Shown one piece after another: positions 60,020 to 61,486 of a DNA stretch of 64,000 nucleotides. The DNA lies in NCBI GenBank assembly GCA_019359745.1, contig JAHHGT010000009.1:1-64000 (forward strand), given 5' to 3'. The position numbers were made by a program, and so were the translations under genes. Positions within the stretch are counted from its first letter, which is position 1. Each line of letters starts with the position of its first letter. This DNA comes from Aphanothece saxicola GSE-SYN-MK-01-06B. GTDB taxonomy: Bacteria > Cyanobacteriota > Cyanobacteriia > PCC-6307 > Cyanobiaceae. The notes under the pieces were generated by a model that saw only the letters and a list, made by a program, of their open reading frames with translations, made no database searches and was not told where the DNA came from.

Positions 60020-60916
60020 TCAGCGCCGCAGCAGCCCACGCAGGCGGCGCGCCACCTTTCGGGCCAGGTTGAGCAGTGGCCAGAGCAGGGAGAGCGGAAA
60101 AGGCTGGCGGATCAGCGGGGTTTCGGCCTTCCGGTAATCCCTGTAGAGCCGCCGGTGGGCGTCCGGATCGGCCGAGCCATCGAAAATGCTGTAGCGGAGG
60201 CCGATCTCCTCACTGCCGACCAGCCGCCTATGGGGATGGGCCGCCAGGACCCGGTGGATGCTCTTTGTGTACACGACCGGACCGGTGGTGCAGATCACCG
60301 CCTCCCAGGGATGGGCGAAGGCGAAGGGATCGAAGCGATCGATGTTGCTGAGCACCGCGGCGATCACGGTGGCCAGAAAGGGATGGCCCGGGGAGGCGAT
60401 GACGTGCCACTGCTGGAATTCACCGCCCGGGATGTCGGCCAGCTGTCGGTGGGTGCCCCAGCCGGCATGGGGACTGCCGGACCCATGGTCCCACTGGCTC
60501 AGCAGGTAGGCATCATTGTCGCGCAGTACATCGGACAACGGCCGGGTGAGGCCGACCTTGACGTCCAGGTAGACACCGCCGAAGTGGTAAATGCAGAGGT
60601 AGCGGAACAGATCGGCGCGGGCGGCACCGTAGACAGGATTGATCCGCCGATAGCGGGCCAGGATTGCCTCCCCGTAGATCTCGCCGATGAGGCGCTCACG
60701 ATCGTGATCGTCGTAGAAGCAATAGGTGAAGTCCGGGTTGAGGGCTTCGATGGCGCGGCAGTTGTCCTCCAGCACCGCCGGCATCCGGCTCCTGGTGCTG
60801 AAGGTCTGGTGGATGATCCTGGGGATGCCGCGGCTGGCCGGAGGATGGGAGGCCAGGGACGCCCCTGAGAGCAACCATGTGCTGGCAGGGTTCACCCCGC
60901 TCCGCTCCTTCATCAT
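60020..60916 (-). CDS. Glycosyltransferase family 32-like (capsular polysaccharide type)
   Basis: A 298-residue protein with the GT32/Och1-like core GIPRIIHQTFSTRSRMP, YCFYDDHDRERLIG and AARADLFRYLCIYHFGGVYL, followed by DVKVG where the classical DXD metal site would be (Asp-Val-Lys instead of Asp-x-Asp). A C-terminal basic stretch (ARKVARRLRGLLRR) may bind membrane. It may transfer sugars to a surface glycan. It converges on the carotenoid oxygenase gene. The start is one of two adjacent ATGs (60916 or 60913). Confidence 0.82.
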   Translation of the reverse strand: MMKERSGVNPASTWLLSGASLASHPPASRGIPRIIHQTFSTRSRMPAVLEDNCRAIEALNPDFTYCFYDDHDRERLIGEIYGEAILARYRRINPVYGAARADLFRYLCIYHFGGVYLDVKVGLTRPLSDVLRDNDAYLLSQWDHGSGSPHAGWGTHRQLADIPGGEFQQWHVIASPGHPFLATVIAAVLSNIDRFDPFAFAHPWEAVICTTGPVVYTKSIHRVLAAHPHRRLVGSEEIGLRYSIFDGSADPDAHRRLYRDYRKAETPLIRQPFPLSLLWPLLNLARKVARRLRGLLRR

Positions 60917-60942: not shown

Positions 60943-61107
60943 TCAGCCGCGCGAGAAGCGGCTGAAAGTAGCGGGGGAGAAGGTATGACCTTCGGAGAGG
61001 GCGATGGCCACCACGGCATCGCTGTCAGCGGCCCCATCCACACGGGCCTTGAGGGCCGGATCGGCCGCCACCTTGGCGAGGAAGGCGGTGAGCTGGGATT
61101 TCGACAT
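60943..61107 (-). CDS. Nif11-like leader peptide family protein
   Basis: A 54-residue protein: MSKSQLTAFLAKVAADPALK followed by a DAVVAIALSEG segment, matching the Nif11-type leader domain used by prochlorosins and other ribosomal peptide precursors. The remaining C-terminus (HTFSPATFSRFSRG) is short, has no Cys and lacks the double-Gly cleavage site typical of prochlorosin leaders. It may be a stand-alone Nif11 protein, a relic or a non-lanthipeptide precursor. ATG 61107 is chosen. It is divergent from the YCII gene (82 bases). Confidence 0.8.
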   Translation of the reverse strand: MSKSQLTAFLAKVAADPALKARVDGAADSDAVVAIALSEGHTFSPATFSRFSRG

Positions 61108-61189
61108 GGGACCATCGCTTACGTACTCTCTCCTTCCTACTCCCTTCCGGAGCGCGGCCCGGAGTCTGATCTCTCGTTCAGTTCCTGCC

Positions 61190-61486
61190 ATGGCCTGGTT
61201 CATCAAGACCGAGACCTTCCGGCTCCCCCATGAGGCGGTGATTCCCCACTTGCAGGAGCATCGCCGCTGGGTGGAGAGCCTTCGCTTGGAGGGCCGCAGG
61301 GTCAGCAGCGGCTACTTGGTGGACGACCAGGGGCGGCCCGGCGGCGGCGGCATGCTGCTACTCGAGGCTCCCGACCATGACGCCGCCCTGTCCCTGGTGC
61401 AGCAGGATCCGATGGTCATTGCGGGATGTGTGGACTGGCAACTGCAGGGGTGGCGGCCGGCGGTGGGTGACCTGGCGGTGTCCTGA
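61190..61486 (+). CDS. YCII-related small protein
   Basis: A 98-residue protein of the YCII-related/dimeric alpha-beta barrel type: MAWFIKTETFRLPHEAVIPH, HRRWVESLRLEGRRVSSGYL with the family His-type site, and a C-terminal DALSLVQQDP-like segment (here AALSLVQQDPMVIAGCVDW). YciI homologues bind small molecules or have unknown enzymatic roles. The stop overlaps the next glycosyltransferase start (TGATG), so they are coupled. Function is unproven. Confidence 0.85.
   Translation: MAWFIKTETFRLPHEAVIPHLQEHRRWVESLRLEGRRVSSGYLVDDQGRPGGGGMLLLEAPDHDAALSLVQQDPMVIAGCVDWQLQGWRPAVGDLAVS

Follow-up and report, generated by a model that had tools for sequence, protein, structure and literature searches.

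Elsewhere, the Nif11 domain serves as a leader for RiPP enzymes. The precursors derived from it (TIGR03798 N11P; prochlorosins) have in common with the protein described here, which we term type A, the domain itself, a start of the form MS..QL.AFL..V and a profile score above cut-off. Among solved structures, the best match in both sequence and fold is the MppE leader of Moorena producens (solution NMR structure 9zn4), a RiPP leader of 77 aa as against the 54 aa of type A, the match in fold being weak. Nif11 proteins without LanM are already known as a kind. In the parts covered of a study on marine Synechococcus and Prochlorococcus (PMC10783134), further non-prochlorosin Nif11 groups are described, including a group F ending in GEYH/N and a Nif11/cupin group; like type A, these are Nif11 proteins with conserved ends, whereas group F and the Nif11/cupin proteins are longer or fused, and type A was not found in the text covered. 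According to the sections covered of two further reports (PMC3877281, PMC10904595), Unk10 from the CA4 island of marine Synechococcus is a Nif11-domain protein of unknown function encoded among regulators of light-colour acclimation. It resembles type A in being a Nif11-domain protein, in its case from an island that holds regulators; with 107-118 aa against 54 aa, the two are likened by description and not by sequence. An iron-responsive 'Nif11 domain-like protein' (PMC9723758) and mentions of Nif11 genes (PMC2784084, PMC8002600) come without a tie to type A in the text covered, and in PMC12455567 the term Nif11 occurs once, in a reference title. A description of the 54-aa type A family was not found in the text covered of the papers listed.

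The gene investigated here lies in the window, the whole stretch of 64,000 nucleotides of Aphanothece saxicola DNA that was analyzed, and comprises the following features:

60943..61107, minus strand: coding sequence of the type A protein, a stand-alone Nif11 protein of 54 aa, from ATG to stop (ORF, profiles, homologues, dN/dS)
60973..61107, minus strand: Nif11 domain match, PF07862 positions 1-45 on residues 1-45 (Pfam profile)
60946..60981, minus strand: tail, residues 43-54 (FSPATFSRFSRG), without GG; AlphaFold helix 4 covers residues 45-53 (alignment A1 and AlphaFold)
61135..61142, minus strand: GAGTAGGA element that precedes the ATG by 28-35 bases (kept upstream sequence)

The computed properties of this locus are those of a conserved ORF of near-fixed length, being under purifying selection, lacking a core, falling into a separate clade and having no LanM, LanC, YcaO or C39 match in its own genome. 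We consider it highly probable that the 54-aa protein is functional, coreless and not a RiPP precursor, and rather likely that it is an adaptor or a regulator. The reading as a whole, to which we assign a probability of about 0.6, is that of a complete stand-alone Nif11-fold microprotein with its own promoter and four helices, binding a partner protein as a small adaptor or regulator. Type A would be made as 54 residues from what appears to be a promoter of its own, and the 54-mer is predicted to fold into a compact four-helix unit with the tail as its last helix. This helical module, kin to the leader domain of RiPP enzymes, would bind a cellular partner protein, and the binding would in turn confer the adaptor or regulator role. 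The points against this reading are the faster evolution of the tail (0.31 vs 0.10), the Cys of one relative (G286), the weak match to 9zn4, the name of TIGR03798 and a SPASM protein in the same genome.

A sequence-only reading of the window had given the interval without a strand. The ORF at 60943-61107 runs on the minus strand and translates into MSKSQLTAFLAKVAADPALKARVDGAADSDAVVAIALSEGHTFSPATFSRFSRG followed by a stop; the FSRFSRG end, the missing core and the missing GG described in that reading all recur in the 54-aa translation, which contains no Cys. Its Nif11-type identity was likewise confirmed, as PF07862 matches residues 1-45 with E 7.7e-14 and 52.2 bits (cut-off 23.8). NCBIfam TIGR03798 scored 41.9 bits (cut-off 32.3), with the match stopping at model position 44 (positions 1-44 of 68) and thus leaving the C-terminal third of the model unmatched; the same profile matched 35 out of 35 rows of alignment A1. 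The ORF is a real gene, far beyond chance, because homologues reach 94% identity over all 54 residues and the substitution pattern in frame is a coding one. Since in-frame extensions upstream of the ATG differ among relatives, several of them being stopped within few codons, translation probably begins at this ATG. Purifying selection acts on the gene: 28 pairs among its eight nearest sequences give a dN/dS of ~0.13, with 0.10 for residues 2-42 and 0.31 for the tail. Within the same eight sequences, pN/pS amounts to 0.19 in the sense frame and exceeds 1.9 in the two other sense frames and 1.5 in two of the antisense frames. The third antisense frame (shifted by one) shows 0.31, which is expected because third positions face third positions there, and which still does not fall below the 0.19 of the sense frame. 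A phage origin of the gene was rejected, tblastn against 50,697 phage records giving zero matches at E up to 1.

The distribution of the gene was determined in 300 genomes of the same family as Aphanothece saxicola. A match to the type A protein at E <= 0.001 is present in 212 of them, and 88 carry one near full-length homologue each (column 1-2 through 52-54, E <= 6.6e-10), including 24 out of 25 within the same genus. Named carriers include Cyanobium sp. N.Huapi 1H5 (94%) and Aphanothece cf. minutissima CCALA 015 (93%), accompanied by further Cyanobium, Synechococcus and Vulcanococcus records, with at least 41 loci overall. From the 88, 52 sequences were read in DNA (two overlapping sets of 30 and 36): 51 of the encoded proteins have 54 aa and the remaining one has 55, with similar tails; 51 are free of Cys, the single Cys of G286 being placed in the tail; and GG is absent from 36/36. 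Residues M1, S2, Q5, L6, F9, G40, F43, A46 and R53 are invariant in alignment A1, which consists of 35 rows, five of them belonging to a sister family (type B, described below). In a sample of 292 genomes representing the phylum, matches extending to column 53-54 were confined to the own family (13 rows) among the candidates scored, while seven genomes outside of it had matches reaching only column 44-46; at most 22 or 23 candidates were scored per genome in the A1 profile searches (300 family and 292 phylum genomes), so that absences are not strict.

Structure prediction with AlphaFold on alignment A1 (pLDDT 88.4) placed helices at residues 3-15, 17-24, 29-38 and 45-53. The tail stretch FSPATFSRFSRG is accordingly predicted to form, for the most part, the last (fourth) helix of the type A fold, and its length and pattern are kept among type A relatives. 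The idea of a leftover behind a leader does not hold for a tail that relatives retain and that is predicted to be the last helix of the domain. By sequence, 9zn4 (the MppE Nif11 leader) is the sole solved relative at E <= 0.001 (E 6.3e-7); it is also the top Foldseek match to the type A model, a weak one with E 0.52 and TM 0.55, Foldseek giving zero matches at E <= 0.001. An alternative to a protein-binding role, considered unlikely, is that of a small regulator whose last helix contacts DNA or RNA through its RxxR. R53 is invariant and R50 common over the 35 rows of A1, and the helix carrying them is a predicted one, but Foldseek returned zero nucleic-acid binding matches at E <= 1 and the whole protein, judged by its sequence, is not strongly basic.

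For comparison with genuine precursors, a prochlorosin-like set was compiled from ten stretches, mostly from Nif11-rich genomes, in which 46 Nif11 matches were read and 32 passed the filter. These 32 precursors have 75-122 aa, 2-4 Cys and a GG/GA site. Type A differs from them by its 54-55 aa, by having neither GG nor a variable core, and by forming a separate clade; a C-terminal variable core rich in Cys/Ser/Thr is absent, the sequences having similar tails that stop at residue 54 or, in one case, at 55. A FastTree phylogeny of 98 domain sequences recovered type A (36 sequences, support 0.71) and type B (25 sequences, support 0.81) as monophyletic. A split with support of 0.92 separated both of them, together with three Nif11 paralogues of the own genome, from the prochlorosin-like set with two further own-genome paralogues, the deeper branches being weak in view of the short alignment.

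The genome of Aphanothece saxicola (3.25 Mb, 99.99% complete) was scanned for RiPP enzymes. LanM and LanC (PF13575 = DUF4135, and PF05147) gave no match at E <= 1 in the whole genome, with the PF13575 search producing matches in 22 out of 300 relatives. No match was found in this genome for YcaO cyclodehydratase (PF02624) or C39 peptidase (PF03412), controls being matched in both cases; LanB (PF04738) gave zero matches in the genome and zero in the controls as well. This agrees with the sequence-only reading, which had noted no LanM or protease nearby and proposed a genome-wide search: none was found among the neighbours scanned, and neither LanM nor a C39 peptidase elsewhere in the genome. 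SPASM is represented by one protein, on a contig other than that of the Nif11 gene.

These data bear on the proposal of an unusual RiPP precursor, in which the last 10-12 residues would act as core and carry modifications at Ser/Thr/Phe/Arg, made by an enzyme whose gene lies elsewhere. TIGR03798 scores above its cut-off, the tail is more variable than the rest, the genome does hold one SPASM protein, and PMC10783134, in the part covered, counts 'other Nif11 precursors' without LanM as putative RiPPs. Yet GG is found in none of 36 type A sequences and 51/52 are free of Cys, the tail is predicted to be helical and is kept in length and pattern as opposed to the variable ends of the prochlorosin-like precursors, YcaO, LanM, LanC and C39 have zero matches in the own genome, and no neighbour is common to all loci. 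Altogether we consider such a precursor improbable. The related suggestion of a carrier for a different modification found no support, given the predicted helical tail and the zero YcaO, LanM, LanC and C39 matches in the genome; one SPASM protein is encoded on another contig. An unmodified secreted or antimicrobial peptide, which would suit the small size, is very improbable for a protein in which no signal or double-glycine export site can be read and whose genome has no C39 match.

Extension of the LanM search to the family detected the DUF4135 domain in 22 of 300 genomes; enzymes other than LanM were searched for in the own genome only. Unlike prochlorosin systems, type A is found without a LanM domain in 82 of the 88 carrier genomes. 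This applies to 64 out of 68 carriers being at least 90% complete, and the absence is weak for the 20 carriers below 90%. LanM and type A occur together in six genomes (G047, G072, G082, G144, G257, G262), in comparison to 6.5 expected if both were unrelated. The notion of a free leader, activating a lanthipeptide synthetase or another RiPP enzyme in trans, can refer to G072, where LanM lies ~10-12 kb from the type A gene. It deserves hardly any credence when LanM is absent from 82/88 genomes, is located on a different contig in five of the six genomes having both, and in G072 has a Cys-rich precursor-like ORF of its own beside it (L144 3052-3342). A prochlorosin precursor decayed by loss of its core, as first suggested, can be dismissed almost entirely: the Nif11 domain is common to prochlorosin-like precursors, but decay would give scattered stops and tails, whereas length (near-constant over 52 sequences), tail pattern and reading frame are kept under purifying selection in a clade apart from the 32 precursors compared.

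The sequence-only reading had held that homologues lacking a core throughout, in genomes without RiPP enzymes, would point to a non-RiPP role, and this is largely the situation encountered, with 52/52 ending at residue 54 or 55 and 82/88 genomes without LanM. From its three interpretations, the regulator option is compatible with our data, as a putative function, while neither the decayed precursor nor the modification carrier could be upheld. For a widespread Nif11 family of near-fixed length, coreless and found mostly in LanM-free genomes, the NCBI name 'RiPP precursor' attached to TIGR03798 is misleading. For natural product searches, the type A family is one false lead fewer; at the same time it offers a small protein, folded according to prediction, for probing the cellular role of the Nif11 domain in picocyanobacteria.

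The preferred reading of a stand-alone microprotein includes a putative promoter of its own. The eight most similar sequences retain a GGAGTAGGA stretch that precedes the ATG by ~30 bases. Among 41 loci (36 type A and five type B), 36 show a TAG between -46 and -24, in comparison to a mean of 8.4 and a maximum of 16 loci in 300 mononucleotide shuffles and to 3, 1 and 8 loci when three other zones served as controls; as the zone was picked after the sequences were seen and the 41 upstream regions are related, these counts are support and not proof, and the TAG in L063 and in some type B loci may be a different element. We infer a -10-like element, belonging to a putative promoter of the type A gene. 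Upstream and divergent from the gene lies a YciI-domain gene (61190-61486, plus strand), and downstream a PF04488 glycosyltransferase (60020-60916, minus strand). An RPE65-type carotenoid oxygenase and two glycosyltransferases are located farther away. Within the flanks of the 41 loci (up to ~5 kb, some ended by contig ends), the RPE65-type oxygenase and HisB (IGPD) recur 17 times each, enoyl-ACP reductase and YciI 13 times each, and the adjacent glycosyltransferase seven times; LanM was the sole RiPP enzyme profile scanned there. A conserved operon partner was considered and rejected, no neighbour being common to all 41 loci. In other genera the gene occupies different chromosomal sites, and its recurrent neighbours are taken as chromosomal background.

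The A1 profile matched 262 of the 300 family genomes at E <= 1e-6, prochlorosin leaders included. Among the matches listed, at least 58 genomes have a match to column 53-54 other than a type A match; two of these (G244, G281) also hold type A, and 10 such matches fall into LanM genomes. All 25 that were read (L058-L062, L078-L097; other family genomes) encode proteins of 56-64 aa with a Cys pair of the form CX5C, here called type B, GG occurring among the last residues of two of them (L058, L091). The 23 aligned rows have C26, C32, G41, H42, F44, S45, A47, W52 and H56 in common, and the same four helices as in type A are predicted (pLDDT 89.2). A partner common to all 25 type B flanks was not found. 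Because the second gene of G244 reads as type B (L085), types A and B look like paralogues, and type B is possibly redox- or metal-linked. As a tentative extension, which we hold to be possible although doubtful, both types (B with its CX5C, GH, W and C-terminal H) could represent the two branches of an old family of picocyanobacteria whose members are signalling proteins of the stand-alone Nif11 kind, and type B may be redox- or metal-sensing. If true, the Nif11 fold would have been a cellular protein-binding module first, taken over later by RiPP pathways as a leader.

Two side observations concern RiPP-related ORFs. In G072, a 96-aa ORF (L144 3052-3342, minus strand) divergent from LanM shows a GG followed by a Cys-rich end and is a candidate lanthipeptide precursor that the A1 profile leaves unmatched. 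The SPASM-domain protein of Aphanothece saxicola (L149 1408-2340, minus strand, contig C4) is situated between ORFs that appear glycosyltransferase-like and AMP-binding-like.

The search for other Nif11 genes, likewise proposed in advance, revealed five more in the own genome (L001, L003, L004, L005, L006). On contig C11, L001 (1429-1644, minus strand) encodes a Nif11 protein of 71 aa from an inner ATG with the end VTVTKQDIPGEYN, and on contig C3, L003 (1138-1671, minus strand) encodes a 177-aa protein in which Nif11 is fused to a cupin-like domain, PF12852 scoring just below its cut-off. The genome thereby seems to carry one group F member and one Nif11/cupin protein in the sense of PMC10783134 (as far as the text covered describes these groups), the former resembling group F (GEYH/N) by its end motif only. 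The 84-aa Nif11 protein of L004 (1501-1755, plus strand, contig C2) combines a leader-like LSDEELQARAG with a short Cys-free end VEARRLRHFIPG and clusters with the prochlorosin-like precursors in the phylogeny. The Nif11 proteins encoded by L005 and L006 (contigs C5 and C11) are 67 and 59 aa long and have one Cys each.
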